From: Haloarcula salina
GTDB taxonomy: Archaea; Halobacteriota; Halobacteria; Halobacteriales; Haloarculaceae
Length of the DNA stretch: 64,000 nt
Direction: 5' to 3'
Assembly: GCF_010119195.1 (NCBI RefSeq)
Contig: NZ_WRXL01000005.1
Coordinates: forward strand, 1-64,000
The notes below the pieces were generated by a model. That model was given only the letters and a program-made list of their open reading frames with translations, ran no database searches and was not told where the DNA came from. The number at the start of each line of letters is the position of its first letter. The first letter of the stretch is position 1. This document shows, one piece after another, positions 12,521-53,048 of this stretch. Made by a program: the position numbers and the translations under genes.

Positions 12521-13303
12521 TTACCCGTCGATCGTATTGTACTCGTAATACTGATTTCGAACTTCGATCTCGTTTTTCGTGTACCGGAGAATCTCCAGAA
12601 TATTCGCCATATAGCTCGACGTAAACCGGTCTCGGGGGCCGGTGATGCCAAGCGAAACCAACACGTTGTGCTCTTCGTCGAAAATCGGGACCGCGATCCC
12701 GCGGACTCCCCGAAGGTGCTCTTCGTCGTCTATCGCGTACCCCTGTTGACGGACCTGTTCGAGTCCGCGTTCAAGTTCTTCGTAGGTCGTCAACGTCTCG
12801 TCTGTCCCCTGGGGCAGTCCGTGGACGTCAACGATTTCGCGCCGCTTCTCTACCGGGAGATTCGCTAGAATCGCCTTGCCAAGTGACGTCCAGTGCATCT
12901 CGGTGTAGTTTCCGATCGGAATTTCGTCACCGGCGGCTTTCTCACCCGTACTACGGTAGAGAATGACTCGCTGCCCGTTCTCTTCGATGCCCGCACCGGC
13001 GATCTCGCCGGTCTTCCGCGCCAGTTCTTCGACTTTGTTACGGAGCAGGCGAGCGACGTCCAGCCTGTGTCGGACGCTGCCGCCGATCTCCAGAAATCGG
13101 AACGAGCGGCGGTACTGTTTGTCCTCTTTCACGACGTACTCGTTCTCGACGAGCGTATTCAGATGCAAGAACACCGTACTGGTGGGAATGTCGAGATGCG
13201 AGGCCAGCTCGGAGAGTCCAACGGGTTCGAGTTTTCCCATCGCTGAGATGATTTCCAGCGTGGTCTCGACGGCGGTGATTGTGTTCGGGTGTTCGTCTGG
13301 CAT
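12521..13303 (-). CDS. IclR-family transcriptional regulator
   Basis: With the start at ATG 13303 the protein has 260 residues, the usual IclR length; the longer open frame upstream crosses the promoter. A winged helix-turn-helix (about 10-75, SELASHLDIPTSTVFLHLNT) precedes the effector-binding domain, with HWTSLGKAILANLP and VRGIAVPIFDEE as landmarks. IclR proteins bind small carbon metabolites. It is divergent from the sugar transporter operon that starts at 13844 and is the obvious candidate to control it. A palindrome at 13356-13374 lies just upstream of its own start. Confidence 0.88.
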   Translation of the reverse strand: MPDEHPNTITAVETTLEIISAMGKLEPVGLSELASHLDIPTSTVFLHLNTLVENEYVVKEDKQYRRSFRFLEIGGSVRHRLDVARLLRNKVEELARKTGEIAGAGIEENGQRVILYRSTGEKAAGDEIPIGNYTEMHWTSLGKAILANLPVEKRREIVDVHGLPQGTDETLTTYEELERGLEQVRQQGYAIDDEEHLRGVRGIAVPIFDEEHNVLVSLGITGPRDRFTSSYMANILEILRYTKNEIEVRNQYYEYNTIDG

Positions 13304-13374: not shown

Positions 13375-13807
13375 ACGACACAGGCGAGTCGTTCCCAGCA
13401 TTATAACGGTCGTACACATGTTATTTTCACTGCGGGGGAGTGGTTTCAGCCGCGTCAACAGTACCCATGTGTGTAGTTATCACTCCATCCGTTTCGACGA
13501 AACGGGGTATTTGGCCCGCTTCGGCCGTATTTCGACAAGCGGTCGCGACGGGGTACGGCGCACGCGCAGTTTTCACCAGGGATGGAAACGTCCTCACTGA
13601 TACCGGATGCTATCATATATCCCCTAGAGACGGCCTCTATCTCCATATTATTGCTGTGGCGCTCGATCTGTATAGCACTTTCTGTCACCCGTGTTTCGAC
13701 GGGAGCGGCCCCGTCACTCCCTCCTGAGTGAACGATACCCTGGAGAGAGGCACGCACGTCGACTTTCGGTGTGGTTGTCAAGCAGACGCACGCTCTCACT
13801 ACCAACA

Positions 13808-13814
13808 TTTATTA
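13808..13814 (+). promoter_or_regulatory. TATA-like promoter element of the catabolic operon
   Basis: TTTATTA is centred about 33 bases before the ATG at 13844, roughly the distance expected for a leaderless haloarchaeal transcript. The 14 bases ATTTATTACCCATG at 13807-13820 recur exactly at 53017-53030, before the second sugar-transporter operon. Confidence 0.45.
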
Positions 13815-13843
13815 CCCATGCTGCAGATGATTCGCCTATCCGT

Positions 13844-14941
13844 ATGAGCGAGGTTACACTATCGAACGTTAGCAAGGTGTACGACGACGACGTCCTTGCG
13901 GTCAATGAACTGTCCCTCACGGTATCGGACGGCGAGTTCGTCGTCGTCGTCGGCCCGTCTGGCTGTGGCAAATCGACCACGTTACGAATGATCGCCGGTC
14001 TCGAAACCGTGACGGCCGGGGAAATCGCCATCGGTGACGAGGTCGTCAACGACGTCAGACCGCAGGACAGGAACATCGCGATGGTGTTCCAGAGCTACGC
14101 GCTGTACCCGCACATGACCGTTCGGGAGAACATGTCGTTCGGCCTGCGGCTCTCCGGGGAGTACGACGAGCAGATCGACGAGCGCGTCGAGGAGGCTGCG
14201 GAGCTTCTAGAGATCTCGGACCTGCTGGATGATTACCCGAAACAGCTCTCCGGCGGGCAGCAACAGCGCGTCGCACTCGGGCGCGCGATCGTTCGAGATC
14301 CGGAGGTGTTCCTGATGGACGAACCCCTCTCGAACCTCGACGCGAAGCTGCGGACGCAGATGCGGACCGAGATCCAGCGGATCCAGGAGGAACTCGACGT
14401 CACGACGATCTACGTCACGCACGATCAGACCGAAGCGATGACGATGGCCGACCACATCGTCATCCTCAACGGTGGCGAGCTCCAGCAGGTCGATCCGCCC
14501 GAGCAGTGCTACGACGAGCCGAACAACAAGTTCGTCGCAGGGTTCATCGGTTCTCCATCGATGAATTTCTTCGACGTGACCGCAACTGCTATCGACGGTG
14601 GCACCCGGTTCGAATCACCGGACGTCGCACTCGATCTCGGTGTCGACATCCCGACCGGCGACTACACGCTCGGCGTCCGTCCGGAGGACTTCGTCGCGGG
14701 CCGAGCCGGTGAGTACATCGACACCGTCGTCGACGTCGTCGAGCCGATGGGCTCTGACAACTTCCTCTATCTCGAGACCACGGGCAGTTCGATGGAGGTC
14801 GTCGCGCGGGTCGATAGCGAGTATCGCCCCCACCGAGGCGACGAGATCTCGCTGGGATTCGATACCGACGATATGCACCTGTTCAATGCCGACGGCGAAC
14901 GCGTGGCAGTGACCGAGTTGCAGACGACGGAGTCGGTGTAA
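13844..14941 (+). CDS. Carbohydrate ABC transporter ATP-binding protein (MalK/UgpC type)
   Basis: The start at ATG 13844 gives 365 residues, normal for the family. The ATPase domain shows Walker A GPSGCGKST, Q-loop MVFQSYALYPHMTV, signature LSGGQQQR, Walker B VFLMDEPLSNLDAKL and VTHDQTEA. The C-terminal third is the regulatory TOBE region (TLGVRPEDFV, ending near DDMHLFNADGE). It energises import of a sugar together with the binding protein and permeases at 15806-18978. Unlike the usual order, the ATPase gene comes first. The next gene starts one base after its stop. Confidence 0.92.
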   Translation: MSEVTLSNVSKVYDDDVLAVNELSLTVSDGEFVVVVGPSGCGKSTTLRMIAGLETVTAGEIAIGDEVVNDVRPQDRNIAMVFQSYALYPHMTVRENMSFGLRLSGEYDEQIDERVEEAAELLEISDLLDDYPKQLSGGQQQRVALGRAIVRDPEVFLMDEPLSNLDAKLRTQMRTEIQRIQEELDVTTIYVTHDQTEAMTMADHIVILNGGELQQVDPPEQCYDEPNNKFVAGFIGSPSMNFFDVTATAIDGGTRFESPDVALDLGVDIPTGDYTLGVRPEDFVAGRAGEYIDTVVDVVEPMGSDNFLYLETTGSSMEVVARVDSEYRPHRGDEISLGFDTDDMHLFNADGERVAVTELQTTESV

Positions 14942-14942
14942 G

Positions 14943-15743
14943 ATGTTGTACGAAACGATCGGCCGGAAGGACAGCGAATGGGCGGGAAAGACGGCGCGGG
15001 ACGTCCGCGCGGTTGGCGAACAGACGGGCTCGGTACTCGTCGTCCCCGTGGGGAGCGTGGAGCAACACGGCGACCACTTACCGGTCGTCACCGACACGCT
15101 CCTCGTGGAGGCGATGGTTGACGCCGCCGTCGACCGCCTCGACGAGACTCCCGTGCTCGTCACCCCGCCGGTCTGGAGCGGCTTCTCGCCGCATCACCTC
15201 ACGTTCGGCGGCACCCTCTCGCTCGAGTTCGCACACCTCCGGTCGACGCTCGAAGACATCGCTCACACCGGGATCGAGAACGGCTTCGACGCCGTGCTGT
15301 TCGTCAACGGACACGGCGGGAACGGGCCCCTCATCGACGCCGTCGTCAGTACCGTCGGCGCCGAGACCGACGCGGAGGTCCTGGGAACGACCTACTTCGA
15401 ACTCGCGGCCGACGCCTCGGCGGAGATCAGACAGAGCGAGACCGGCGGGATGGCACACGGCGGTGAGTTCGAAACGTCGCTCATGCTCGCGATTCGGCCG
15501 GACCTGGTTGGAGACCCTGCAGCACGCGACGGCGAGCCGATGGACGAACACTATCGGTGGGCCGGCCAGGACTTGCTCGACGGGGGCCCGGTTTCGGTGT
15601 ACCGGTCGTTCGACGCGTACTCGGAGTCGGGCGCAATTGGGGCCCCGAAACAGGCCAGTGCGGAAACGGGGCAACGGCTCCGGTCGGCAATCGGTGACGA
15701 ACTCGCGGCGCTGCTGGTCGCGATTCACGAGCACAACGCGTGA
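14943..15743 (+). CDS. Creatininase-family metal amidohydrolase
   Basis: The 266-residue protein carries the family metal-binding pattern: PVGSVEQHGDHLPVVTD (Glu, His and Asp ligands), FVNGHGGN and HGGEFETS (His and Glu). Members hydrolyse cyclic amides or related rings: creatininase, formamidopyrimidine deformylases, a ring-opening hydrolase of inositol catabolism, and the mycofactocin peptidase MftE. Lying inside a sugar ABC operon, between the ATPase and the binding-protein gene, it more probably acts on an imported or intermediate sugar-derived lactam, lactone or cyclic ketone than on creatinine. The exact reaction cannot be read from the sequence. Confidence 0.82.
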   Translation: MLYETIGRKDSEWAGKTARDVRAVGEQTGSVLVVPVGSVEQHGDHLPVVTDTLLVEAMVDAAVDRLDETPVLVTPPVWSGFSPHHLTFGGTLSLEFAHLRSTLEDIAHTGIENGFDAVLFVNGHGGNGPLIDAVVSTVGAETDAEVLGTTYFELAADASAEIRQSETGGMAHGGEFETSLMLAIRPDLVGDPAARDGEPMDEHYRWAGQDLLDGGPVSVYRSFDAYSESGAIGAPKQASAETGQRLRSAIGDELAALLVAIHEHNA

Positions 15744-15774
15744 AACAGGCCGAAATATGACACGAACAATAACC

Positions 15775-15782
15775 ATTATATA
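15775..15782 (+). promoter_or_regulatory. TATA-like element before the sugar-binding protein gene
   Basis: ATTATATA is centred about 27 bases before ATG 15806, which fits a leaderless transcript. A separate promoter here would let the abundant binding protein be made in excess over the upstream ATPase. Confidence 0.45.
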
Positions 15783-15805
15783 CCTGGGACTTGGTAACAC
15801 TAACG

Positions 15806-17188
15806 ATGCAGTCCAGTAACAATCCCGAGTCTAGCGAGGACAGTCTCGACCGTCGGCGACTCCTGCAGGCGCTCAGTGCGGGCGGTGCTATCGCTATCGC
15901 CGGGTGTAGTGGCGGCGATGGCGGCGACGGCGGCAGTGGCGACGGTGACAGTGGCGACGGCGGGAGCGGCACCGACGGGGACGGCGGCGATGGCGGCGAC
16001 GGCGGCTCCCGGAGCATCCAGTTCCTCACGATGGGCGTCGGCGACAACATCCAGCAGTACTTCGAAGAGAACAACGCGGCCTTCGAAGAGGAGTACGGCG
16101 TCGACGTGGAGTTCACCAGCGTCACGTGGGACAACGCCCGCCAGACGGTGAACAACCGCGTCGACGGCGGCCAGGCACCGGACGTGAGCCGCTGGCCGGC
16201 CCGCTGGATCCCGCAGCTCGTCGGCAAGGACGCGCTCGAACCGCTCGACGACATGATGGACGGCGAGTTCGGCCAGAAGTTCTCCGAGGGCGTCGCGGCG
16301 GGGACGATGTACAACGGCTCTCACTACGGCGTCCCGTGGGCCGCCTCGAACAAGTGTCTCTACTACAACAAGGACGTGTTCGAGACGGCCGGACTCGACC
16401 CGGAGAACCCGTCGCTCGACTCCTGGGACGACATGCTGTCGGCGGCCCAGCAGATCCGAGACAGCGACGCGAGCGTCCCAGCGCTCGGTCTCGCCGGGGC
16501 CGACGCGATCGAGACGGGGTCGCAGTACTACCACTACCACTGGTCGCACGGCGCGGACCTGGTGAACGACGAGGGGCTGCCGGTCGTCAACACCGACGGA
16601 GCCGTCGAGGCGCTCTCGTTCTACACCGACCTGCACCTCGAACACGGCGTGACCCAGTCCTCGCCGCTGTCCTCGACCCGACAGGACATCCGTCAGCTGT
16701 TCGAGAACGGCGACCTCGGCATGGTCATCGGGCACGTCTACACCGGACTCAACATCGAGTCGGCCAAAGAGAGCGGCGACGTGGACTTCGACTACGGGAT
16801 CGTCCAGGTGCCCGAAGGACCCGAGGGGCGCTACAGCCTCTTCACCATCGACGCGATCACCGTTCTGAGCCAGAGCGAGCACAAGGACCTCGCACGGGAC
16901 CTGATCCGGTTCTACTTCGACGAGGAGCGCCGGTTCCAGTACTCGAAGCAGAAGGGGTTCCTGCCGGTCGTCGAGGCCGTCGGCGAACGGCCGTACTTCT
17001 CCGACTCGAAGAACTGGGCCCCGTTCGTGGAAGCGAGCCAGTACGCCCGCGCGCGACCGAAGCTCAGCAACTTCAGCCAGTTCAACGACCGCATGGTCCA
17101 GGCGATTCAGGAGGCGCTCGCGGACCAGAAGACGCCACAGAAAGCGCTCAACGACGCCCAGAGCGACCTCGAAGATGCGATGGAGTGA
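15806..17188 (+). CDS. Carbohydrate ABC transporter substrate-binding lipoprotein
   Basis: The start at ATG 15806 gives 460 residues; an in-frame TTG further up is less likely given the promoter spacing. Features in order are the Tat motif DRRRLLQ, the lipobox IAGC at about residue 36, a long Gly/Asp/Ser linker, and a two-lobed type 1 binding fold of the extracellular solute-binding family 1 (VDVEFTSVTWDNARQTVNNR, YYNKDVFETAGLDPENP, ALGLAGADAIETGSQ). It captures the sugar outside the cell for the permeases that follow. The ligand is unknown. Confidence 0.9.
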   Translation: MQSSNNPESSEDSLDRRRLLQALSAGGAIAIAGCSGGDGGDGGSGDGDSGDGGSGTDGDGGDGGDGGSRSIQFLTMGVGDNIQQYFEENNAAFEEEYGVDVEFTSVTWDNARQTVNNRVDGGQAPDVSRWPARWIPQLVGKDALEPLDDMMDGEFGQKFSEGVAAGTMYNGSHYGVPWAASNKCLYYNKDVFETAGLDPENPSLDSWDDMLSAAQQIRDSDASVPALGLAGADAIETGSQYYHYHWSHGADLVNDEGLPVVNTDGAVEALSFYTDLHLEHGVTQSSPLSSTRQDIRQLFENGDLGMVIGHVYTGLNIESAKESGDVDFDYGIVQVPEGPEGRYSLFTIDAITVLSQSEHKDLARDLIRFYFDEERRFQYSKQKGFLPVVEAVGERPYFSDSKNWAPFVEASQYARARPKLSNFSQFNDRMVQAIQEALADQKTPQKALNDAQSDLEDAME

Positions 17189-17197
17189 GCCACACCG

Positions 17198-18136
17198 ATG
17201 AGTATCGCCGAGGAGTACACCGACACCACAGACGACTCACGCTTCGAGCGGGGGCTGACCTACCTCCAGCGCAACAGTCGAGCGTATCTCCTGATCGCAC
17301 CGACGGCCCTGTTCCTGCTCGCAGTCGTCGGCTATCCGATACTGGAGACGTTTCGGCTCTCGCTGTATCAGTCGCCCGCGGACTCGAACATCGAGACGTT
17401 CGTCGGCCTCCAGCACTACGCGGAGATCGTCGACAGCGACATCTTCTATCGATTGCTCTGGCAGACGGGTCGCTGGGTCGTCGTCGGCGTCGCCGGCAAG
17501 ACTATCATGGGGCTGCTCATCGCCGTGCACCTCAAGGGAGACATTCGCGGCCGGAAGTTCTTCCGAACCGCGTTTCTCATCCCGTGGGGCATCCCCTACG
17601 CCATCTCGGCGGTCGTGTTCCGCTGGATCGAGCACCCGCAGTTCGGCTACCTCAACGCCATCCTGCTCAAGCTCGGGCTCATCGAGCAGGGGATCGGCAT
17701 CCTCGGCAACCCCGACATCGCGTGGCTCGGAGTCGTCGTCGCGGACATCTGGATCGGGACGCCGTTCATGGCGATCATCTTCCTCGCCGGGCTCCAGTCG
17801 ATCCCGCAGGAGCTCTACGAGGCGGCCGCCATCGACGGGGCGGAGCGGTGGCACCAGTTCCGCTACATCACGCTCCCGCAACTCAAGAGCGTCATCCTGA
17901 TCGCGACGCTGCTGTCGACCATCTGGACGTTCGTCAGCTTCGACACCATCTGGACGATGACCGGCGGCGGCCCGATCAGCACGACGGCGACGCTCGTCAT
18001 CCACATCTACCAGGTGGGTCTCCAGAACGGGAACCTCGGTCGCGGCGCGGCCTACAGCGTCATCGGGTTCCTGTTCCTGTTCGTGTTCGCCATCATCTAC
18101 CTTCGGGTGTACACCCGGGGAGGTGACGAGCTATGA
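17198..18136 (+). CDS. Carbohydrate ABC transporter permease (MalF/UgpA type)
   Basis: The 312-residue protein has six membrane spans and the EAA loop LYEAAAIDGAERWHQFRYIT that docks on the ATPase. The hydrophilic N-terminus (about 30 residues) is typical of haloarchaeal versions. It begins nine bases after the binding-protein gene and overlaps the second permease by four bases. With that permease it forms the heterodimeric channel. Confidence 0.92.
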   Translation: MSIAEEYTDTTDDSRFERGLTYLQRNSRAYLLIAPTALFLLAVVGYPILETFRLSLYQSPADSNIETFVGLQHYAEIVDSDIFYRLLWQTGRWVVVGVAGKTIMGLLIAVHLKGDIRGRKFFRTAFLIPWGIPYAISAVVFRWIEHPQFGYLNAILLKLGLIEQGIGILGNPDIAWLGVVVADIWIGTPFMAIIFLAGLQSIPQELYEAAAIDGAERWHQFRYITLPQLKSVILIATLLSTIWTFVSFDTIWTMTGGGPISTTATLVIHIYQVGLQNGNLGRGAAYSVIGFLFLFVFAIIYLRVYTRGGDEL

Positions 18137-18978
18137 CGATGGCCGGCCACGACCGAAGCGGACTCCGAAAGGTCCGCCTCTACGGCGTGTTGCTTGCCCT
18201 GCTCGGGGTCATGATGCTCCCGTTCTACACCATGTTCTCGAGCACGCTCAAGCCCGAGAACGAGATCTTCTCCGCGCCCGCGACGCTGGTGCCGTCCGAT
18301 CCCACCGTTCAGGCGTACCTCGACGTGTGGACGCAGACCGACGTGTTGCTCTGGATCGGCAACAGCTTCGTCATCTCGCTCGGGACCGTCGCGCTCACGC
18401 TCGCGCTGGCGATTCCGGCGGCGTACTCCTGTGCGCGTAACGACTTCGTGGGCAAGCGGACGTTCCTGCTCTCGGTGCTCGTCGTCCAGATGTTCGCGCC
18501 GGTGGTGTTGATCGTCGGGCTGTTCGACGTGATCACGCAGTTCGGCCTGTTCAACACCTATCTCGCCGTCATCATCCCGGCGGCGGCGTTCACGCTGCCG
18601 TTCAACGTCTGGATGCTGTACGGCTACTTCAAGACGATCCCGGTCGCGCTGGAAGAGTCGGCCCGCATCGACGGGGCCAGCCAGTTCCAGATCCTGACGA
18701 AGATCGTGCTGCCGCTGACCAAGCCGGCGCTGGTCGCGAGCATCACGTACACGTTCCTCTACGCGTGGAACCGGCTCCTGTTCGTGCTGACCTTCCTCAC
18801 CGACAGCGCGAAGTACAACATCCCGCGGGGCGTCTTCTCGATGGTCGGCGCGCTCCAGACCGACTGGCGGATGATGCTGACGGTGTCCGTCATCGGCATC
18901 ATCCCGCTGCTGATCCTCTTTGCCTTCCTCGAGGAGTACATCGTCGCCGGGATGACGGCGGGTGCAGTCAAGGAGTAA
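18133..18978 (+). CDS. Carbohydrate ABC transporter permease (MalG/UgpE type)
   Basis: The 281-residue protein has six spans and the EAA loop LEESARIDGASQFQILTKIV. The C-terminus IVAGMTAGAVKE is characteristic of the MalG branch. It is the partner of the permease encoded just upstream, whose stop codon it overlaps by four bases. Confidence 0.92.
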   Translation: MTMAGHDRSGLRKVRLYGVLLALLGVMMLPFYTMFSSTLKPENEIFSAPATLVPSDPTVQAYLDVWTQTDVLLWIGNSFVISLGTVALTLALAIPAAYSCARNDFVGKRTFLLSVLVVQMFAPVVLIVGLFDVITQFGLFNTYLAVIIPAAAFTLPFNVWMLYGYFKTIPVALEESARIDGASQFQILTKIVLPLTKPALVASITYTFLYAWNRLLFVLTFLTDSAKYNIPRGVFSMVGALQTDWRMMLTVSVIGIIPLLILFAFLEEYIVAGMTAGAVKE

Positions 18979-18987
18979 CCGCCTCTA

Positions 18988-18996
18988 CTTTTATTA
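18988..18996 (+). promoter_or_regulatory. TATA-like element before the TIM-barrel gene
   Basis: CTTTTATTA is centred about 27 bases before ATG 19019. Similar elements stand before the next two genes: TTTCTTA (20184-20190) before 20215, and CTTCAATA (21400-21407) before 21434. The catabolic genes may therefore each have a leaderless internal promoter as well as read-through from upstream. Confidence 0.4.
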
Positions 18997-19018
18997 GCGT
19001 TCCAGCGGACGGTGACGT

Positions 19019-20170
19019 ATGGAATTCGCCACGTGGGCTTACCCGTGGGACGTGCTCGACGAGGGGCCGAACCACGTCGAGTCGCGGCTCCGGGAGATCG
19101 GCGTCGACGAACTGAACCTCGCGACGAACTACCACTCCGTCCAGGCGTTCACGCCGCACAACCCCGAGCGGCGGACGCTGTTCGCCAGGGCGAGCTCGTA
19201 CTTCGAGCCGGGGCCGGAGTACGGTCTGCTCGAACCGATTCCGTACGAAGAGATGGACGGCGACTGGGTCGGCCAGATCGGGGCCGAACTGACCGACCTG
19301 TCTCTCACCTCCTGGACCGTCGGCTGTCACAACTCACGACTGGGGATGCGAAACCCCGAACACACGCTGGAGACGGCCCACGGCGACGACCTCGTGTTCG
19401 GCCTCTGTCCGTCCCGGCCCGCGGTCCAGCGGTATCTCACCGCCCTCGTCTCGGACGTCGCGTCCCGACCCGGAATCGAGCGGGTCGAACTGGAGACGTT
19501 CGACTACTTCTACGGGACGGGCTGGGGGTGGCACCACCAGAAGATACACGCGCGGCTGGGAGCGCTCGGGGAGTTCCTCCTCGGCCTGTGCTTCTGCGAG
19601 CACTGCCGGTCGAACGCGGCGGACGCGGGGGTCGCCGTCGAGGGGGTTCGAGACGTGGTGGCCGGCACCATCGACGACATCGTCGCCGGTGCCGTGGCAC
19701 ACGACCGGTCACCCGAGGCGTGGCTTCGCGAGCACGATGAGGTCGGCGCGTACGTCGACGTTCGGGAAGCGACGCTGGACGCGGTGTTCGCCGACCTGCG
19801 AACGGCCGCCGGCACGACGCCGCTGGGCTACTACGTCGGGGCCCCCGAACCGGGCCGCGAGTGGATGGTCGGTGCCGACCTCGACCGACTGGCCGACCAC
19901 GTCGACTACTACTGCCTACCGGCGTACGAGTCGACGAGCGAGGACGTGATGGACGCGTACCGAACTGTCGACGAGGTCACGGCCGAGACGCCGCTTCACG
20001 TGGGTCTCCTGCCTGGGCATCCGGAAATCCACGAGGAGTCGACGGTCGTCGATATCCTCGCCGAACTCCAGGCGGCCGGGGTTCCGCGGGTGTCGTTTTA
20101 CAACTACGGGCTCTTGCCGTCTCGGTCGCTCGACTGGGTCGGCACCGCCATCGACGCGGTCGACGGGTAG
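19019..20170 (+). CDS. Putative TIM-barrel glycoside-hydrolase-like protein, unassigned family
   Basis: The 383-residue protein has no signal peptide and appears cytoplasmic. The opening FATWAYPWDVLDEGPNHVES, the acidic segment IERVELETFDYFYG at the end of a likely beta strand, and LCFCEHCRSNAADAG (CxxC) recall hypothetical glycosyl hydrolases with the motif Cys-Phe-Cys-x-x-Cys, in which an acidic pair sits at the barrel rim. Later segments (GYYVGAPEP, VDYYCLPAYES, PLHVGLLPGHPE) fit successive strands of a barrel. It could cleave a small imported glycoside. I cannot name a characterised homolog. Confidence 0.6.
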   Translation: MEFATWAYPWDVLDEGPNHVESRLREIGVDELNLATNYHSVQAFTPHNPERRTLFARASSYFEPGPEYGLLEPIPYEEMDGDWVGQIGAELTDLSLTSWTVGCHNSRLGMRNPEHTLETAHGDDLVFGLCPSRPAVQRYLTALVSDVASRPGIERVELETFDYFYGTGWGWHHQKIHARLGALGEFLLGLCFCEHCRSNAADAGVAVEGVRDVVAGTIDDIVAGAVAHDRSPEAWLREHDEVGAYVDVREATLDAVFADLRTAAGTTPLGYYVGAPEPGREWMVGADLDRLADHVDYYCLPAYESTSEDVMDAYRTVDEVTAETPLHVGLLPGHPEIHEESTVVDILAELQAAGVPRVSFYNYGLLPSRSLDWVGTAIDAVDG

Positions 20171-20214
20171 CCGCAAACGGTACTTTCTTATCGCTTCCCA
20201 GACCACGTGTGTCT

Positions 20215-21381
20215 ATGGAGATAACTGACGTGACAGCCGTTACTGTAGACGTTCCGCTGGCCGACCTCGACGACCACCTCGGCATCGGCCCCTACGTGAC
20301 GAACCACGGTCGACTGGACTCGATGGAGCGGGTTCTCGTCCGCGTGGACACCGACGAGGGAATCAGCGGGTGGGGCGAGATGCGCGTGTTCCTCTCGCCC
20401 GAGGCGACCGAGTCGATCATCGAGGACGGCGTCGGCCCGATGATCCGTGGGCAGTCGCCGTTCGAGATCGAGCGGCTCCGAAGACAGGTGTTCGTCGAGT
20501 ACACCAACGTGGACATGTTCTTCGCGGCGGTCGAGACGGCCTGCTGGGACATCGTGGGCAAAGCGCTGGACCGGCCGGTGTACGAACTCCTGGGCGGATG
20601 GACGGCGCCGACCCAGGGGACCCAACAGCACCGCCAGAACATCGAGGGCGACGACGCGTCTCCCTCGCCGGTCCCCGTCGCCTTCTGTCTCGGTATTCTC
20701 TCGCCCGAGGAGTCGCGCGCGAAGGCCCGCGAAGCCCTCGACGCCGGGTTCTCGGTGCTCAAGACGAAAGCCGGTCGAGACTGGAGAGAAGACGTCGAGC
20801 GGATCGAGGCGATGCACGACGAGACCGACGGGCAGCTGGAGTTCCGCCTCGATCCGAACCAGGGCTGGACGCTGGAGCAGGCGGTCCGCGTCGGCGCGAT
20901 GCTGGAAGACTCCGGGATCTACCTGCAGTACATGGAGCAGCCGATCCGCGTCGACTCGCACCGCTCGCTCGCGCGCCTCCGCCAGCGGCTCAGGCAACCG
21001 ATCGCACCGAACGAGGACACCTATATTTCGCACAACATCCAGTCGCTCATCGAGGCCGGCGCGATGGACGTCGGCGTCATCGACCTGACGCCAGCCGGCG
21101 GAATCAGCGGGATCCGTCAGCAGGCCGCGGTCCTCGAAGACGCGGGGGTTCCGTTCACCCATCACTGCGCCTTCGATCTCGGTATTCGCACGGCCGCGAT
21201 CCTCCACGGCGTCACCGGCATCCCCGGGTTCTCGCTGCCGCCGGACTCGACGTACTACGGCTGGGACGGCGAAGTCATCGAGCACCCGTTCGAGGTCAGC
21301 GACGGGTGTCTCCCGGCCCCGGAGGGGCCAGGGCTCGGAATCTCGGTCGACATGGACGCGGTCGCGGAGTACCGATGCTGA
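20215..21381 (+). CDS. Enolase-superfamily enzyme (mandelate racemase/muconate lactonizing group)
   Basis: The start at ATG 20215 gives 388 residues. The N-terminal capping domain (DEGISGWGEMR) is followed by the barrel with the KxK pair in VLKTKAG, metal ligands in FRLDPNQGW, YMEQPI and PNEDTY, and a histidine in FTHHCAFDLGIRTA, the arrangement used by mandelate-racemase-type acid sugar dehydratases and epimerases. The enzyme abstracts a proton next to a carboxylate with Mg2+. In this operon it probably dehydrates or epimerises a sugar acid. The substrate is unknown. Confidence 0.82.
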   Translation: MEITDVTAVTVDVPLADLDDHLGIGPYVTNHGRLDSMERVLVRVDTDEGISGWGEMRVFLSPEATESIIEDGVGPMIRGQSPFEIERLRRQVFVEYTNVDMFFAAVETACWDIVGKALDRPVYELLGGWTAPTQGTQQHRQNIEGDDASPSPVPVAFCLGILSPEESRAKAREALDAGFSVLKTKAGRDWREDVERIEAMHDETDGQLEFRLDPNQGWTLEQAVRVGAMLEDSGIYLQYMEQPIRVDSHRSLARLRQRLRQPIAPNEDTYISHNIQSLIEAGAMDVGVIDLTPAGGISGIRQQAAVLEDAGVPFTHHCAFDLGIRTAAILHGVTGIPGFSLPPDSTYYGWDGEVIEHPFEVSDGCLPAPEGPGLGISVDMDAVAEYRC

Positions 21382-21433
21382 TGTCGGTGGAAGAACAAGC
21401 TTCAATAGGGTCGCCGCCGACCACTCATTCGCT

Positions 21434-22279
21434 ATGGTAGAGCTATCGCTCCAGGAGCGTCCGGCGATCGTCACGGGCGCCTCGCGCGGGATCGGTCGCG
21501 AAATCGCGGCCCGGTTCGCCGAGGCCGGCGGCGACGTGGCCATCTGTTCGCGCTCGTACGACGACGTCGAATCGGTGGCGACGGAACTCACAGCGGACCA
21601 CGAGGGCCGCGTCGTCCCCGTCGAATGCGACGTGACGGACCGAGAGGCCGTGCGGAACCTCGTCGACACGGCGATCGACGAGTTCGGCGACCTCCGGGTA
21701 CTCGTGAACAACGCGGGCGCCTCGGTCGAATCGGCGAACGTCTTGCACCGATGTGACGAGGAGACGTTCGAGTCGATGGTCGACCTGAACCTCAAGAGCC
21801 AGTTCCTCCTGAGCAAGGAGGTCCTCCCGGCCATGGTCGCCGCCGGCGGCGGCTCGATGGTCCACGTCGGCTCCGTCAACGGCCTGTTCGGGATCGGCCT
21901 GTCGGGGTACTCGGAGGCCAAGAGCGGTCTCCTGGCCCTCTCGCGCAACATCGCCACGCACTACGGGCAACACGGGGTCCGTTCGAACGTCCTGTCGGCG
22001 GCGACGATCGAGACCGAGAACCGACGCGAGGAGATGGAGAACACCGACCAGCGGACCGGCGAGTCCGGCGTCCGGGAGCGGTGGCTGGACCAGTACCCGC
22101 TCGGCCGGTTCGGGACGCCGGGAGAGGTCGCAGACACGACGCTGTTTCTGGCCTCCGAACGGTCGAGTTTCATCACGGGCGAGAACCTCGTCCTCGACGG
22201 CGGCCTGACGAGCAGCCTCCCGACCTCGTTCATCAACGAGATCTACGACGCGGACGAACGACCGACACCCAGTAACTGA
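21434..22279 (+). CDS. Short-chain dehydrogenase/reductase (SDR)
   Basis: The 281-residue protein is a classical SDR: cofactor motif VTGASRGIG, VNNAGAS, catalytic Ser in VHVGSVNG, and Tyr/Lys in GYSEAKSG, with the C-terminal ITGENLVLDGG. CSRSYDD after the second strand suggests NADP rather than NAD preference, with moderate certainty. An extension of about 15 residues follows the usual end. It lies between the enolase-superfamily and RidA genes and probably oxidises or reduces a hydroxyl or keto group of the operon's intermediate. Confidence 0.86.
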   Translation: MVELSLQERPAIVTGASRGIGREIAARFAEAGGDVAICSRSYDDVESVATELTADHEGRVVPVECDVTDREAVRNLVDTAIDEFGDLRVLVNNAGASVESANVLHRCDEETFESMVDLNLKSQFLLSKEVLPAMVAAGGGSMVHVGSVNGLFGIGLSGYSEAKSGLLALSRNIATHYGQHGVRSNVLSAATIETENRREEMENTDQRTGESGVRERWLDQYPLGRFGTPGEVADTTLFLASERSSFITGENLVLDGGLTSSLPTSFINEIYDADERPTPSN

Positions 22280-22285
22280 CATCCA

Positions 22286-22660
22286 ATGGACGAACTCACG
22301 ACAGACGACGCACCCGACAGCATCGGACCGTACTCGCAAGGAATCGCCTCCGGCGACCGAATCTACGTCTCCGGACAGGGACCAGTCGACCCGGAGACCG
22401 GCGACGTGATCGACGGCTCACCCGCCGAACAGACCAGACGAACGCTGCGAAACGTCGAGGCGATCCTTCAAGCGGGCGACGCGTCGCTCGACGACGTGGT
22501 GAAGGCGACGGTGTTCGTCAAGGACATGCGGTACTACGACGAGGTGAACGAGGTCTACGGGGAGCTCATGTCCGCGCCGTATCCGGCGCGGAGCGCCGTC
22601 GAAGTCGTCAAGCTCCCCGTGGACATCGACGTGGAGATAGAGGTCGTCGCAGAGCGATGA
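22286..22660 (+). CDS. RidA/YjgF-family enamine/imine deaminase
   Basis: The 124-residue protein shows family landmarks IGPYSQGI, IYVSGQGPVDPETG, AGDASLDDVVKATVFVKDM and PYPARSAVEVVKLP, the last with the arginine that binds the carboxylate of the substrate. RidA proteins hydrolyse reactive enamines and imines to keto acids and trimerise. Its presence inside a catabolic operon suggests that an amino-sugar or amino-acid-like intermediate passes through an enamine, or that it is a dedicated deaminase. It begins six bases after the SDR. Confidence 0.88.
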   Translation: MDELTTDDAPDSIGPYSQGIASGDRIYVSGQGPVDPETGDVIDGSPAEQTRRTLRNVEAILQAGDASLDDVVKATVFVKDMRYYDEVNEVYGELMSAPYPARSAVEVVKLPVDIDVEIEVVAER

Positions 22661-22661
22661 G

Positions 22662-23294
22662 ATGACGCGCCTCGTCGTCTTCGACCTCGACGGGACGCTC
22701 ACCCGCCAGCGAGGCGGCTTCGAGCTGTTGCACACCCTGTACGGGACGGCGCCCGTCGGCGAGGAGTTACAGGACCGCTTCGACGCCGGCGCGCTGACAT
22801 TCGACGAGTGGTGCCGCGAGACCGTCGATCACTGGCGGACCGCCGGAATCAGCGCAAACGACGTCGAGCGGGCCGCGGAGGCGGTGACACCGAAAGCCGG
22901 CGCGCCGGAGGTGCTGGAGGCGCTTCGACGCGAGGGGGTATCGTTCGGAATCCTGAGCGCGGGCGTCGCGAACCTCGCGGCGCGGTTCGAGCGCTTCGGC
23001 CCCGCGTTCGTCCGCGGAAATCGGATTCGGTTCGAGGACGGGTCCCTCGCGGGCATCGACGTCGGAGTGGGCCCAACGCAGAAGGGCGAGATATTGCGAG
23101 AGATTCGTCGGGAACGCCCGGACGTCGAAATCACGTACGTCGGCGACTCTCACACCGACACCGAAGCGTTCGTCGAGGCGGATTCGGCGATTCTATTCGA
23201 CCCAGACGATCGGGTCCCCCCGGAAGCGGTCGCCGCAGCCGATTCCATCGTTGAATCCAGTGACATCCGCGATATTGCCGAACTGCGTCTGTAG
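22662..23294 (+). CDS. HAD-superfamily phosphatase (SerB-like)
   Basis: The 210-residue protein has HAD motif I DLDGTLT, motif II in GILSAGVANLA, and motifs III/IV in QKGEILREI followed by TYVGDSHTDTEAF. The helical cap after residue 20 resembles phosphoserine phosphatases. It starts one base after the RidA stop and is probably the last gene of the operon, since an AT-rich gap follows. A small phosphorylated acid or sugar is the likely substrate; serine phosphate is possible but not favoured by context. Confidence 0.82.
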   Translation: MTRLVVFDLDGTLTRQRGGFELLHTLYGTAPVGEELQDRFDAGALTFDEWCRETVDHWRTAGISANDVERAAEAVTPKAGAPEVLEALRREGVSFGILSAGVANLAARFERFGPAFVRGNRIRFEDGSLAGIDVGVGPTQKGEILREIRRERPDVEITYVGDSHTDTEAFVEADSAILFDPDDRVPPEAVAAADSIVESSDIRDIAELRL

Positions 23295-30891: not shown

Positions 30892-31052
30892 CTCATAACA
30901 CACTCCATGTCAGCGAGATGCCGCCTATCACATAAACATTCCGATAATGTATCCCAGTAGACAGCAATTCACTTTCGATCCCACTTCCCGACAATCCGGC
31001 ATGTAAAATCATGCTATATCTATTTACGTAGTTAGTCACTGGTATGATTCGT

Positions 31053-32615
31053 ATGGCAGACGATGACAGCGGTGTCGATAGGCGTAGCGTTCTGAAAACG
31101 ATCGGCGTCGGCGCACTCGGGACGGCCGGCGGGGTCGCGTCGAGCGGGTCCGCCTCTGGGAGCACCGACGGTTCGACACACTACCACAACGAACTATACG
31201 GACCGCACTTCCCTGACCCGACGATCCATCGAGACGATAGCGGAACGTGGTGGGCGTACGGAACGAACATGAACCGGGACGACGGCTCGAACGACTCAGC
31301 GGAACGCCTCGTCCCGATTCTTCGGTCCGACAATCTCCACGAGTGGACCTACGTCGGCGAGGCGTTCGGCTCGCGTCCCGGGTGGACCTACGGGTCGATC
31401 TGGGCACCGGACATCCACTACTACGACGGCGAGTGGGTGATGTTCTACTCGCTCTCGCCCCGGCCGTGGGAGAGCGGGGAGTTCGGAATCGGCCTCGCGA
31501 AGTCGGACACGCCCGACGGCCCCTTCACGGACTACGGACAGATCATCGGGGACACCGACCACGCCGGCGGCGGGACCATCGACGGGTACTTCGTCGAGTA
31601 CGACGGCACGCCCTACCTGTTCTGGGGGAGCTTCCAGGGCATCTACGTGATGGAACTCACCGCCGACCTACAGGACTGGCGGTCGGGCACGCTCCAGCAG
31701 GTCGCGGGCGACGCTTACGAGGGGAGCACGGTCTTCTCCCGGAACGGCTACTGGTACCTGTTCGTCGCCACCGGCACGTGCTGTGGCGGCTACAGTAGCA
31801 CGTACGAGGTAGAGGTCGGGCGCTCGACGGACTTCTTCGGTCCATACACCGATCCCTCGGGTACGGACATGCTGAACTACGACAGCGACAACGCCGGCAT
31901 CGCCCAGCTCACCGCCAACGACCGCTTCGTCGCGCCCGCCCACGGAGACATCACCACCGACGACAACGGCAAAGACTGGTTCGTCTACCACGCCTACGAT
32001 GCCAACGCTCAGGAGTACGTCGACGGCGTCCCCGCGCGGAAGTTCTTCGTCGACCGCGTCGAGTGGACCGACGACGACTGGCCCATCATCGGGGGCGACA
32101 AGACGCCGAGCCTCCAGTCCGTCGAACCGAACACGACCGACACCGGCATCCTGGCGGACGGGATCTACGAGATCGAGAACGTCAACAGCGGCAAGCTCTT
32201 GGAGGTCGCAGACGCCGGCACGAGCGACGGCGACAACGTCCGGCAGTGGAACGCGAACGACTGCACCTGCCAGCGGTGGTGGGTGGAGTACATCGGCGGC
32301 GGCGAGTACCGCATCTTCAATCAGAACAGCACCCGTGCGCTCGACGTGCCCGACGGCTCGACGGCGGATGGCGCGAGCCTCCAGCAGTGGGCGTGGTGGA
32401 CCGGCGGGCCCCAGAAGTGGGACATCGTCGAGAACGGCGACGGGACGTACCGAATCAGAAACGTCGCCAGCGGAAAGGTGGCCGACGTGAACAACGCGTC
32501 GACGGCCGACGGCGCGGACGTGATCCAGTGGTCCTGGAACGGCGGGGACAATCAGAAGTGGAACTTCAACTTCGTCGAGACCGTCCAGCCGACTGACGAC
32601 GGCCGCCCTTGGTAG
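31053..32615 (+). CDS. Secreted GH43-like glycosidase with C-terminal ricin-type lectin domain
   Basis: From ATG 31053 the protein has 520 residues (an ATG three codons upstream is also possible). A Tat motif (DRRSVLKTIG) leads to export. The five-bladed propeller (about 45-350) has the GH43 acids in HFPDPTIHR, IWAPDIHYYDGEW and YEGSTVFSRNG. After a short linker, about 370-510 is a RICIN/CBM13 domain with three QxW repeats (RQWNAND, QQWAWWTGG, IQWSWNGG). Arabinan- or xylan-derived oligosaccharides are the likely targets. It is divergent from the M24-like gene; a small dyad GCATG ... CATGC (31001-31016) lies in the shared promoter region. Confidence 0.85.
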   Translation: MADDDSGVDRRSVLKTIGVGALGTAGGVASSGSASGSTDGSTHYHNELYGPHFPDPTIHRDDSGTWWAYGTNMNRDDGSNDSAERLVPILRSDNLHEWTYVGEAFGSRPGWTYGSIWAPDIHYYDGEWVMFYSLSPRPWESGEFGIGLAKSDTPDGPFTDYGQIIGDTDHAGGGTIDGYFVEYDGTPYLFWGSFQGIYVMELTADLQDWRSGTLQQVAGDAYEGSTVFSRNGYWYLFVATGTCCGGYSSTYEVEVGRSTDFFGPYTDPSGTDMLNYDSDNAGIAQLTANDRFVAPAHGDITTDDNGKDWFVYHAYDANAQEYVDGVPARKFFVDRVEWTDDDWPIIGGDKTPSLQSVEPNTTDTGILADGIYEIENVNSGKLLEVADAGTSDGDNVRQWNANDCTCQRWWVEYIGGGEYRIFNQNSTRALDVPDGSTADGASLQQWAWWTGGPQKWDIVENGDGTYRIRNVASGKVADVNNASTADGADVIQWSWNGGDNQKWNFNFVETVQPTDDGRPW

Positions 32616-48228: not shown

Positions 48229-48999
48229 ATGATGGTGAACCGAGACGACGACGAAGTCCTGGTCAAAGGGACGGCAACGGCGTTCGAGGTGCTCGAAGCC
48301 CTCGGCGAGAGCGGCGAAGCGACCCTGACAGAGATCGCAGAACGGGCGTCGGTGTCCAAACCGGGGGCGTACAAGCACCTCACGACGCTCGACCGGCTCG
48401 GGTACGTCGTGAAGCGCGACACCACCTACACGCTTGGCCCGCGATTTCTGCGCCTCGGCAGCTGGTCTCGGAACGAGATGCAACTGTTCCGCGCGGCGAA
48501 ACCGAAAATCGACGAGCTGTCCGACACGACGCCCGGGCTGACAAGCCTCCTCGTCGAGGATCACGGGCAGGGCGTGTACGTCTACCGCGCCGGTGACGAC
48601 CAGTACCTGTACGAGCGTCCCGAAGGGGAGACCGTCCCCCTTCACGCGTCTGCGGCTGGAAAGGCCGTCCTCGCGGCCCTCGACGAGTCGGAATTCGAGC
48701 GAGCGATCGATCGCCACGGACTGACGAGCGTCACACCGAACACGGTCACCGACGAGTCGGCACTACGGACCGAACTACAAGACATCCGCGAGGGCGGCGT
48801 GGCCTCGGATCGCGGGGAATGTCTCGAAGACTGGCACGGCGTCGCGTATCCCATCACTCGGGGGACGGACGGCCCGGTCGGCGCCGTCTCAGTCTCCGGG
48901 CCGGTCGACGAACTTACCGGTTGGACGCTCGACGAGGAGATATCGGGCCACATCGTCAGCACCGTCGAGTCCATCGAGGTCGAACTCTTCATGAGCTGA
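48229..48999 (+). CDS. IclR-family transcriptional regulator
   Basis: The 256-residue protein has a winged helix-turn-helix (TLTEIAERASVSKPGAYKHL), a recognition wing, and the effector domain with HASAAGKAVLAAL and WHGVAYPITRGTDGPVGAV. The start at the first of two ATGs lies 27 bases after a TATA-like element. It faces the end of the DgoD-like gene and is the nearest regulator to the sugar-acid and glucose-dehydrogenase cluster at 49325-57661, which it probably controls. Confidence 0.88.
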   Translation: MMVNRDDDEVLVKGTATAFEVLEALGESGEATLTEIAERASVSKPGAYKHLTTLDRLGYVVKRDTTYTLGPRFLRLGSWSRNEMQLFRAAKPKIDELSDTTPGLTSLLVEDHGQGVYVYRAGDDQYLYERPEGETVPLHASAAGKAVLAALDESEFERAIDRHGLTSVTPNTVTDESALRTELQDIREGGVASDRGECLEDWHGVAYPITRGTDGPVGAVSVSGPVDELTGWTLDEEISGHIVSTVESIEVELFMS

Positions 49000-49324
49000 T
49001 AACAGGGGAGGCGTTTACAGGACGTAAACATATTCGTGGCCTGAAGCGTGACCCGTATGCTCTCGAAGTTGACCAAAGGTTTTATTATCGATAAGCGAGC
49101 ACTAACGGGCGGAGCAAGAATACAGACGCTCCGCTGGCTGTACGACCAACACGTTACTTACCGTCAGGCAAACGTGGACCTCTGCCCACATCCGTACAGC
49201 CACGCCCCGTTATAGCGAAGCCGTAGTAGTCGATACACCGCGAGAAGCGGACGTGCCGAAGAGACTCGTGTGGTGTCAGGGCCCGTAGTCGAACGCGCGG
49301 AAGGCCTTCATTCGTGAGAGCGTC
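49000..49324. other. Convergent intergenic region
   Basis: The gap contains the inverted repeat at 49013-49029, an AT-rich stretch at 49075-49095, and otherwise GC-rich text with no gene. Confidence 0.5.
49013..49029. repeat. Inverted repeat GTTTAC ... GTAAAC
   Basis: Perfect six-base arms flank AGGAC, 14 bases after the IclR-type stop codon. It could be a regulator site or a weak hairpin at the transcript end. There is no downstream T-run. No other copy was noticed in the window. Confidence 0.3.
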
Positions 49325-50497
49325 TCACCACTCGGCGATGCTCCCGTCGTCCCGTCGGCGAATCGGAGTGTTCCACTTGACGTCGACGGCCGACTGTTCG
49401 CGCACCAGTTCCTCGTCGATCTCGATACCGAGGCCGGGCTCGGCAGGCGGCTCGAAGTAGCCGTCGACGCATCGGAGTGCGTCCTGGTTCTCGAGGTACG
49501 TGATATCCGCTTCCTCCTCCGGATAGCGTTCGAGGCTCTGTTGCTGGGTGAGGATGTTCCAGGACGCGAACCCGATCTGCAACGACGCCGCGACTGCGAC
49601 CGGGCCGAACGGACAGTCGATAGCGGCACCGACCCCGAACGTCTCGGCCATGTCGATGATGCGCTTCGTCTCGGAGATCCCGCCCAACTGGGCGATGCTC
49701 GGTTGGATGATGTCGACGCCGCCGTCGACCAGCAGCGATCGGAACTCCGCTCGCGAGTACAGTCGCTCGCCGGTCGCGATGGGGACGGTCGTGCCGCTCG
49801 CGAGCTCCGGCAGCACGTGATTATGTTCCGGAAGCACGGGCTCCTCGACGAACATCGGGGAGTAGGGCTCGAACGCCTTGATGAGCCGCGTCGCCATCGG
49901 ACGGGTCGCTCGCCCGTGCAAGTCGACGCCGACGTCCACGTCGGTCCCGACGACCTCGCGGACGTGCGCGAGTCTGTCGACGATTTCGTCAACTTTCGAC
50001 GGGGCGTCGATATGCCGAAGCTTCGGACTACCTGCGATCTTCACCGCGGAGAAGCCGGCTTCGACGCTCTCTCTGGCCGCCGTTTCCAGCTCGGAGTCCG
50101 GGCGATCAGACCCCTGCTGGAGATCGCCGCCGATCCAGCGATACGCCCGTAATCTATCCCTAACTGGGCCGCCGAGGAGTTCGTACACCGGCTTCCCGCA
50201 CTCTTTGCCCTTGATGTCCCAGAGCGCCTGATCGATGCCCGAGATGGCGCTCATGAGAATCGGACCGCCGCGGTAGAACCCGCTCCGGTACATCGCCTGC
50301 CAGTGGTCCTGAATCCGACCCGCCTCGTAGCCGATGATGTGCGTCTTGACCAGCTTGTCGACCGCCGCCTTCACCATGTCTGCGTGGCCTTCGAGCGTCG
50401 GTTCGCCCCAGCCGACGAGGCCGTCGGCCGTCTCGAGCCGAACGAAGAGCCAGCGCGGCGGGACCTCGAACAGTTCGTAATCGACAATCGTTGCCAT
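49325..50497 (-). CDS. Galactonate-dehydratase-like enolase-superfamily enzyme with His-to-Asp change
   Basis: The 390-residue protein aligns by eye with D-galactonate dehydratase (DgoD): VDLHGRATRPMA holds the first metal Asp and the His acid catalyst, FVEEP and ATGERL hold the metal glutamates, and IIQPSIAQLGGI matches. Where DgoD has HCPLGP, with the second catalytic His, this protein reads DCPFGP (Asp about residue 294). It should still bind Mg2+ but its chemistry may differ. It is divergent from a Gfo/Idh/MocA dehydrogenase and a glucose dehydrogenase, fitting aldonic acid dehydration in a non-phosphorylated Entner-Doudoroff-type route. Confidence 0.85.
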   Translation of the reverse strand: MATIVDYELFEVPPRWLFVRLETADGLVGWGEPTLEGHADMVKAAVDKLVKTHIIGYEAGRIQDHWQAMYRSGFYRGGPILMSAISGIDQALWDIKGKECGKPVYELLGGPVRDRLRAYRWIGGDLQQGSDRPDSELETAARESVEAGFSAVKIAGSPKLRHIDAPSKVDEIVDRLAHVREVVGTDVDVGVDLHGRATRPMATRLIKAFEPYSPMFVEEPVLPEHNHVLPELASGTTVPIATGERLYSRAEFRSLLVDGGVDIIQPSIAQLGGISETKRIIDMAETFGVGAAIDCPFGPVAVAASLQIGFASWNILTQQQSLERYPEEEADITYLENQDALRCVDGYFEPPAEPGLGIEIDEELVREQSAVDVKWNTPIRRRDDGSIAEW

Positions 50498-50655
50498 GGG
50501 TGGTATCCACGCCGTATCCTCATTACTTTACTCCCCGACGGGGCGGGCTGACTCGCGCTCGACGCCCGATCGAGCGGGCCGGTCGGCTACCCGGAAGACA
50601 CGTTCGAGTCAATCCGACCGGAAGGTATAACAGTGACTACCGAGACGTTCCAACG

Positions 50656-51738
50656 ATGCGATTCGGAGTCATCGGCTGTGGAATGGTGGCACAGGTCATG
50701 CATATCCCGTACCTCGCGGAGCTTCCGGAGGCGAAGCTACACGCCCTCGTCGACCCCGCCGAGGACCGGGCGCAAGAACTCGCGGAGCGCTACAACGTCC
50801 CGCACGTCTACGCCGGTCACGAGGCGCTGATCGACGAACGTGGCGACGACCTGGACGCCGTGGTCGTACTCACGCCCTCGCACGCGCACGCAGACGTGGT
50901 CGTCGACACGCTCGGCGCCGAGATACACACGCTCGTCGAGAAACCGCTCGCGACGTCGCTCGAAGACGCCGACCGAATCGTCGAGGCCGACGAGACGTCG
51001 GACGCGACCGCGATGGTCGCGTACATGAAACGCTACGACCCGTCGTATCAGCGGGCACAGGCCGAGATCGACGGCCTCGACGGCATCGACCTCGTCACCG
51101 CTTACGACGTGGACCCGGACCACTTCCGCATCGTCGCCGAAGTGTACGACCTCGTGGAGGGCGCTCCGCCGGAGGAACTCATCGAGGAGAGCGTCGAAAA
51201 GCGACAGGCAGACATCGAGCAGGCCATCGGGACGGACGACGAGACGCTCGTGGACGCCTACGACTTCCAGCTCGAACACGTCTGTCACGACGTCAACGCG
51301 CTGCGCGGACTGTTCGGGAGAGTCGAATCCATCGACCACGTGAACGTCTTCGCCGACGGCCGGTACGCGACGGCCCACCTCACCTACGAGGACGGCGTCC
51401 AGTGCGTGCTGGAGACGGGCGACTCCGACCGCAAGTGGTTCGAGGAGTTCATCCGCGTCGACGCGCCGGACGGCATGGTCACCGTCGACTTCTCCAACCC
51501 GTTCATCAAGAACACGCCCACGGAGCTCCGTACGAAACAGGGCATCGAGGAGCTCACAGACACCGTCAGGACGCCGTCGTACGACGAGGCGTTCAAACGC
51601 GAACAGGAGGCCTTCATCGACTGCGTCGAGGGCGAGGCCGAGGTGAAGACGACCACCGCCGAAGCCAGGGAAGACCTCCGGGTCATCGTCGACCTGTTCA
51701 GGTCCTACCGCGGCGAGGCGGCTCGAAGCGACGACTGA
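50656..51738 (+). CDS. Gfo/Idh/MocA-family sugar dehydrogenase
   Basis: The start at ATG 50656 gives 360 residues. The Rossmann motif VIGCGMVAQ, then TPSHAHADVV and VEKPLATSLEDA, the family EKP signature, are clear. The C-terminal alpha/beta domain includes YDFQLEHVCHDVNALRG with the conserved His, and SDRKWFEEFIRVDAPDGMV. Members oxidise sugars or inositols with NAD(P). It is followed after 69 bases by glucose dehydrogenase, suggesting parallel oxidation of two sugars or successive steps. Confidence 0.88.
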   Translation: MRFGVIGCGMVAQVMHIPYLAELPEAKLHALVDPAEDRAQELAERYNVPHVYAGHEALIDERGDDLDAVVVLTPSHAHADVVVDTLGAEIHTLVEKPLATSLEDADRIVEADETSDATAMVAYMKRYDPSYQRAQAEIDGLDGIDLVTAYDVDPDHFRIVAEVYDLVEGAPPEELIEESVEKRQADIEQAIGTDDETLVDAYDFQLEHVCHDVNALRGLFGRVESIDHVNVFADGRYATAHLTYEDGVQCVLETGDSDRKWFEEFIRVDAPDGMVTVDFSNPFIKNTPTELRTKQGIEELTDTVRTPSYDEAFKREQEAFIDCVEGEAEVKTTTAEAREDLRVIVDLFRSYRGEAARSDD

Positions 51739-51807
51739 GCGCCGTTCGCGACCGTGCCGGGACGGGAAACGGTTTTGTACGGCCCCGCCGAACGCTCCGA
51801 CGTTGCA

Positions 51808-53024: not shown

Positions 53025-53048
53025 CCCATGAGAGGGACGTTTACCTGT

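Follow-up and report, generated by a model that had tools for sequence, protein, structure and literature searches.

A conserved Haloarcula operon that may import and catabolise N-acylated amino sugars

Organization of the operon

The window analysed here is a stretch of 64,000 nucleotides from Haloarcula salina (positions 1 to 64,000 of contig NZ_WRXL01000005.1, a Haloarcula contig of 387 kb). It carries an operon of ten genes that run in one direction with short gaps between them (13844-23294, plus strand), in the order ATP-binding cassette (ABC) ATPase, creatininase homologue, sugar-binding lipoprotein, two permeases, a TIM-barrel protein (below, the barrel), an enolase-superfamily enzyme (below, the enolase), a short-chain dehydrogenase/reductase (SDR), RidA and a HAD phosphatase, next to a divergent IclR gene. 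Such an arrangement had been proposed from the DNA letters in the original prediction, and the Pfam and NCBIfam matches agree with it in coordinates and strand. The features are as follows.

12521-13303, minus strand: IclR-family regulator, divergent (IclR_C 122 bits, and HTH_IclR)
13804-13816, plus strand: TATA-like promoter element CCAACATTTATTA, upstream of the ATPase start
13844-14941, plus strand: ABC ATPase of the MalK/UgpC type (NF008653, UgpC subfamily, 462.8 bits, cutoff 432)
14943-15743, plus strand: creatininase-family metal-dependent amidohydrolase, proposed N-acyl hydrolase (PF02633, 212 bits)
15806-17188, plus strand: sugar-binding lipoprotein with RR signal (SBP_bac_1, 154 bits)
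17198-18136, plus strand: ABC permease A, CUT1 type (PF00528, UgpA-like)
18133-18978, plus strand: ABC permease B, CUT1 type (PF00528, GlcU/MalG-like)
19019-20170, plus strand: TIM-barrel protein without a Pfam family, proposed intracellular glycosidase (predicted fold)
20215-21381, plus strand: enolase-superfamily (MR_MLE) enzyme, proposed N-acylhexosaminate dehydratase (MR_MLE_C 184 bits)
21434-22279, plus strand: SDR oxidoreductase, proposed sugar C1 dehydrogenase (NF005559, "glucose 1-dehydrogenase" subfamily, 219.8 bits, cutoff 215)
22286-22660, plus strand: RidA-family enamine/imine deaminase (TIGR00004, 145 bits, over cutoff)
22662-23294, plus strand: HAD-IB phosphatase (TIGR01488, 82.8 bits, cutoff 45)

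The IclR reading frame is open to 13417, and homologues agree better with a start at 13303, which is probably the true one; the binding protein probably starts at 15806, and the enolase start is corrected to 20215. The promoter element is identical in the eight Haloarcula species compared, each time some 30 nt ahead of the ATPase start. The divergent IclR gene stays beside the operon in most relatives; inverted repeats of the intergenic region, examined as possible IclR sites, are short and unconvincing. Family matches identify the components of a CUT1-type sugar ABC importer: an extracellular lipoprotein for binding, a pair of permeases and an ATPase of the MalK/UgpC type that carries a TOBE domain. 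The nearest solved relatives of the binding protein are sugar-binding proteins. The proposal of a catabolic operon that has its own importer and an IclR regulator is supported.

Conservation and gene neighbourhood

The distribution of the operon genes was surveyed in a sample of 293 Halobacteriales genomes. Of these, 60 contain the barrel, 72 a member of the enolase subfamily and 73 one of the creatininase subfamily; all three are present in 16 of the 17 sampled Haloarcula. The operon is also kept in Haloferax, Halomicrobium, Halorubrum and others, and the order of its genes is the same in Haloarcula, Haloferax and Halomicrobium. Both enolase and creatininase are present in 67 genomes, on one contig every time, at a spacing of at most 0.3 kb in 15, at most 5 kb in 44 and at most 24 kb in 66 (hypergeometric p ~1e-52 for the co-occurrence, relatedness being ignored). 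The recurrence of the order and the co-occurrence in 67 genomes indicate that the grouping is not due to chance, and the possibility that homologues of these genes never co-occur elsewhere, which would have spoken against a common function, does not hold. Haladaptatus QDMS2 and the genomes G170 and G061 contain most of the gene set in a rearranged form, which speaks for a link in function more than for common descent alone. Where the genome is complete, the operon genes often lie on megaplasmids. The HAD gene is present in Haloarcula operons and in one case elsewhere. Minimal operons found elsewhere consist of IclR, a GntP-type symporter, enolase, creatininase and RidA only, a content that fits a sugar acid requiring elimination, amide hydrolysis and imine hydrolysis.

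Relatives of the barrel also occur in other settings. In loci L108-L114 of Haladaptatus, Halegenticoccus and Natronococcus, each with its barrel gene near 10001, relatives of 53-61% identity all lie with a dipeptide epimerase. Most of these loci additionally encode an M20 peptidase, an aminotransferase, a ThrC-like enzyme or an ABC importer. No creatininase or RidA hits were obtained in them, and they may represent another catabolic set. More distant relatives (~30-35% identity, L121-L176) lie beside an AstE/AspA deacylase, a D-serine dehydratase-like pyridoxal phosphate (PLP) enzyme and an amidohydrolase in rhizobia (Rhizobium, Shinella), and beside CUT1 importer, SDR, M81 and aldehyde dehydrogenase genes in Rhodobacteraceae. 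The rhizobial clusters carry little weight as evidence because they have little in common with the operon beyond barrel, RidA and IclR, and their ABC importer is of another type.

Several neighbour genes point to the substrate. Directly after the operon, all five Haloferax species examined carry genes for a 2-keto-3-deoxy-6-phosphogluconate (KDPG) aldolase and a 2-keto-3-deoxygluconate/2-keto-3-deoxygalactonate (KDG/KDGal) kinase, both over their model cutoffs; neither lies beside the operon in Haloarcula. In Halomicrobium urmianum, glycoside hydrolase (GH) genes of families GH109, GH20 and GH123 adjoin the operon's regulator, and GH109 and GH20 genes are found beside the operon of G061, which belongs to a different family. 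GH109 and GH123 enzymes are N-acetylgalactosaminidases and GH20 enzymes are beta-N-acetylhexosaminidases, and these specificities make N-acetylgalactosamine (GalNAc) the first candidate substrate. Genes of the dihydrodipicolinate synthase (DHDPS) family adjoin the enolase in several loci. We give about an even chance to the reading that the substrate taken up and broken down through the operon is an N-acylated 2-amino-2-deoxyhexose, either as the free sugar or as part of a short glycoside, with GalNAc, N-acetylglucosamine (GlcNAc) or a close relative as candidates.

The enolase, the creatininase homologue and the barrel

The enolase matches both Pfam MR_MLE domains (C-domain 184 bits, N-domain 60 bits). 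K183xK185, D213, E241, E267, D290 and H317 are invariant in 18 relatives, in which the motif positions were judged by eye, and this pattern of a KxK motif, three acidic metal ligands and an Asp-His pair is that of the superfamily. All tested models of named acid-sugar dehydratases (gluconate/galactonate, arabinonate, mannonate and others) gave scores below cutoff, the best being 124.8 bits against 335, so that assignment of the enolase to one of these named enzymes was rejected. A second enolase-superfamily gene, 25% identical to the first, is found in the window (49325-50497, minus strand) near another IclR gene (48229-48999) and near a second sugar-type binding protein and permease (53028-55529); the region 48229-55529 is perhaps another sugar-acid locus.

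The creatininase homologue is a PF02633 family member in which the metal-ligand positions E40, H42, D51, H124 and E175 are invariant in 18 relatives. Its scores are below the curated cutoffs for creatininase (91 against 235), MftE (116.8 against 172) and the 3-dehydro-scyllo-inosose hydrolase IolN (55.7 against 245), and roles in creatinine, mycofactocin and inositol metabolism were rejected on these scores. Inositol-type catabolism with the homologue acting as IolN, itself a creatininase-family member, is therefore very improbable, since the operon also contains no inositol dehydrogenase and RidA and the enolase would be unexplained. Among the substrates suggested in the original prediction, amino sugars are favoured by the neighbour genes, while inositol is disfavoured by these same results and ureido sugars and plant glycosides find no contextual support.

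MftE, a peptidase, is nevertheless the best NCBIfam match of the homologue, although below cutoff, and raises the possibility that small N-acyl beta-hydroxy amino acids or peptides are degraded, the enolase dehydrating or epimerising them, the creatininase homologue acting as a peptidase or amidase and RidA removing 2-aminoacrylate-type intermediates. Dipeptide epimerases share the enolase superfamily and are among the enolase hits, RidA acts on 2-aminoacrylate, and a dipeptide epimerase and an M20 peptidase accompany relatives of the barrel in Haladaptatus. The importer, however, is of the sugar type, the neighbours are glycosidases and sugar-acid genes, and the GH-like barrel would have no role, so that we hold a peptide substrate to be improbable.

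The barrel matches no Pfam family, a GHL10 match being below threshold. Its AlphaFold model (mean predicted confidence, pLDDT, 93.5) resembles the TIM barrels of glycoside hydrolases, in line with the glycosidase-like barrel first suggested from the sequence. Structure comparison gave the GH domain of PgaB as the nearest solved fold, followed by GH42, GH20 and GH18 enzymes; PgaB is a poly-N-acetylglucosamine hydrolase of family GH153. E159, H104, H173, R249 and a CFC..C motif are invariant in 33 relatives, and from the predicted fold we propose that the barrel is an intracellular glycosidase. Elsewhere in the window, a gene at 31044-32615 encodes a GH43 glycosidase with a ricin-type beta-trefoil lectin domain.

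A proposed route for N-acylated amino sugars

From the gene content, conservation, co-occurrence, conserved catalytic residues and neighbour genes observed above, together with the predicted barrel fold, we infer a substrate, an activity for the barrel and an order for steps 3-6 of the following scheme. The sugar would be taken up by the IclR-controlled CUT1 importer (step 1), and any glycosidic bond would be cut by the barrel in the cytoplasm (step 2). The SDR would then oxidise C1 inside the cell to give an N-acylhexosaminate (step 3), an oxidation that sets a carboxylate beside C2 and makes the C2 proton removable by enolase-superfamily enzymes. The enolase would take this proton, alpha to the new carboxylate, and expel the C3 substituent, giving an N-acyl enamine (step 4), whose amide would be hydrolysed by the creatininase-family metalloenzyme with release of acetate or another acyl group (step 5). 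RidA would hydrolyse the resulting enamine or imine to a 2-keto-3-deoxy sugar acid and ammonium (step 6), and a KDG/KDGal kinase and a KDPG aldolase would complete the route (step 7); the 2-keto-3-deoxy sugar acid matches the kinase and aldolase neighbours. A nitrogen-containing or cyclic ketone intermediate had been expected beforehand: the nitrogen-containing part is retained. Neither ring opening nor a cyclic ketone is needed; loss of an N-acyl group agrees better with the neighbour genes.

The scheme would amount to oxidative amino-sugar catabolism in a variant form that needs no PLP. In the Ong oxidative chitin pathway of Pseudoalteromonas, N-acetylglucosaminate is converted to KDG, RidA is essential and a KDG kinase comes next (PMC9537276). 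The proposed route, which also contains RidA, would likewise lead from an amino-sugar acid to KDG with loss of acetate and ammonium, but Ong relies on the D-aminoacylase-type deacetylase OngB, the PLP deaminase OngC and an SSS transporter (PMC9537276), whereas in the window operon these tasks would fall to the creatininase homologue, the enolase and the CUT1 importer, with the sugar proposed to be oxidised intracellularly. Family searches found neither an Ong-type D-aminoacylase-type deacetylase nor a PLP-dependent deaminase among the ten operon genes. In a study on Natrarchaeobius, chitinase clusters are described that contain genes for IclR, a RidA-family protein, glucose dehydrogenase and an enolase-type "galactonate dehydratase" (PMC12343721), a haloarchaeal, IclR-linked clustering of the same enzyme types. 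The GlcNAc scheme given there uses a CE14 deacetylase and a DgaE-type ammonia-lyase, assigns no catalytic role to the enolase-type and RidA genes and, in the sections consulted, does not mention a creatininase (PMC12343721). The haloarchaeal semi-phosphorylative routes similarly feed the product of an enolase-superfamily acid-sugar dehydratase to KDG/KDGal kinase and KDPG aldolase, but the window enolase falls well short of the model cutoffs for gluconate/galactonate dehydratase and for arabinonate dehydratase, and it has partners for amide hydrolysis and deamination. A literature search combining enolase, creatininase and RidA or GlcNAc returned nothing relevant.

The same substrate class could be degraded in reversed order, the creatininase homologue deacetylating first, the enolase acting as a PLP-free hexosaminate dehydratase and RidA clearing the imine. 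N-acetylglucosaminate is indeed deacetylated ahead of deamination in the Ong pathway, in which RidA is needed, and related clusters (see below) also carry a deacetylase and a DgaE-type lyase. However, with deacetylation as the first step the DgaE route would be enough, and the window operon has no DgaE. Moreover, a free alpha-amine would be an unusual substrate for the enolase superfamily, whereas N-acylamino acid racemases, which belong to it and are among the enolase hits, take N-acyl acids. We therefore regard the reversed order as unlikely.

Related clusters with NamZ and AnmK

Enzymes related to those of the operon are also encoded in Haladaptatus, Halorussus and elsewhere in clusters that hold NamZ, NagZ or GH3, and AnmK, proteins of N-acetylmuramic acid (MurNAc) recycling and scavenging; some of these clusters add a DgaE-type ammonia-lyase and a BshB1-like deacetylase. 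Haladaptatus pallidirubidus has homologues of the creatininase, enolase, SDR, RidA, HAD and barrel together with NamZ, AnmK and GH3, and Halomontanus has NamZ with enolase, creatininase and barrel. NamZ and AnmK are found in exactly the same 24 of the 293 genomes (including the L081, L082, L088 and L089 loci), all of which contain the enolase and a barrel relative; 23 contain the creatininase, the copy of the 24th being truncated at the end of the record. The gene at 15889-17097 of L081 has a homologue, 63% identical, in Natrarchaeobius (L115). MurQ, the remaining member of the known recycling set and the enzyme that cleaves the lactyl ether of MurNAc, scored above its model cutoff in none of the 293 genomes; weak partial matches were obtained, mostly in open frames of at least ~600 codons, which are probably SIS domains of GlmS-type proteins. 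The NamZ/AnmK/NagZ clusters are likely a haloarchaeal cell-wall scavenging island.

NamZ and AnmK were found neither in the window genome nor in the sampled Haloarcula, and a simple MurNAc assignment of the window operon was rejected on this ground. A split of two enolase clades into GlcNAc and MurNAc types was also considered and rejected because Haladaptatus QDMS2 combines transporter genes of the window type with an enolase outside the window clade. More tentatively, and rather doubtfully as a whole, haloarchaea may have a PLP-free N-acylamino-sugar route, with enolase-superfamily elimination at C3 and creatininase-family hydrolysis of the N-acyl enamine, that in the NamZ/AnmK clusters would take the place of MurQ by eliminating D-lactate from oxidised muramic acid and would let archaea feed on bacterial cell walls.

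Evidence weighed against an N-acylated amino sugar

Several observations weigh against an N-acylated amino sugar as the substrate or against single steps of the scheme. The likeness of the barrel to PgaB is moderate (TM score ~0.6, 11% identity, compared at fold level), and three Halomicrobium operons lack the barrel; the SDR subfamily NF005559 is broad; and only two operons of the window type have GH20 and GH109 genes at their flank. A separate DgaE/GH3 locus exists in Haloferax and H. hispanica, so plain GlcNAc may be handled there and the window operon may serve another amino sugar. The window enolase lies in a different clade from the NamZ-cluster enolases, making these a parallel in chemistry and no proof of a shared substrate. 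Finally, UxuA is found beside the genes in Natrarchaeobius and would suit uronates too, so that a uronate-linked substrate is possible.

Such a substrate could be an amino-sugar disaccharide that contains a uronic acid, or else a uronic acid that is itself N-acetylated, from a glycosaminoglycan-like or haloarchaeal polysaccharide, with the enolase as a dehydratase of an aldarate or uronate-derived acid. Besides UxuA, an SDR adjoins the genes in Natrarchaeobius, the DHDPS-family neighbour in Halomicrobium best matches 5-dehydro-4-deoxyglucarate dehydratase, below cutoff, and a sulfatase lies near the G206 cluster. Nonetheless, UxuA occurs in one locus, no lyase or glucuronidase was seen in window-type operons, and a uronate is not needed to account for the KDG/KDGal kinase and KDPG aldolase in Haloferax. 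We consider a uronate improbable, if slightly less so than a peptide.

Significance for haloarchaeal metabolism

GlcNAc metabolism of chitin-using haloarchaea is described in one study as not yet recognised (PMC12343721), and a 2025 paper asks whether archaea exploit bacterial peptidoglycan as a resource (PMC12352652). The gene set supplies concrete, testable enzymes for both questions. If the proposed route is true, one enolase subfamily and one creatininase subfamily would gain a function, as would the barrel family, for which Pfam has no model, and RidA would have a defined place in catabolism.

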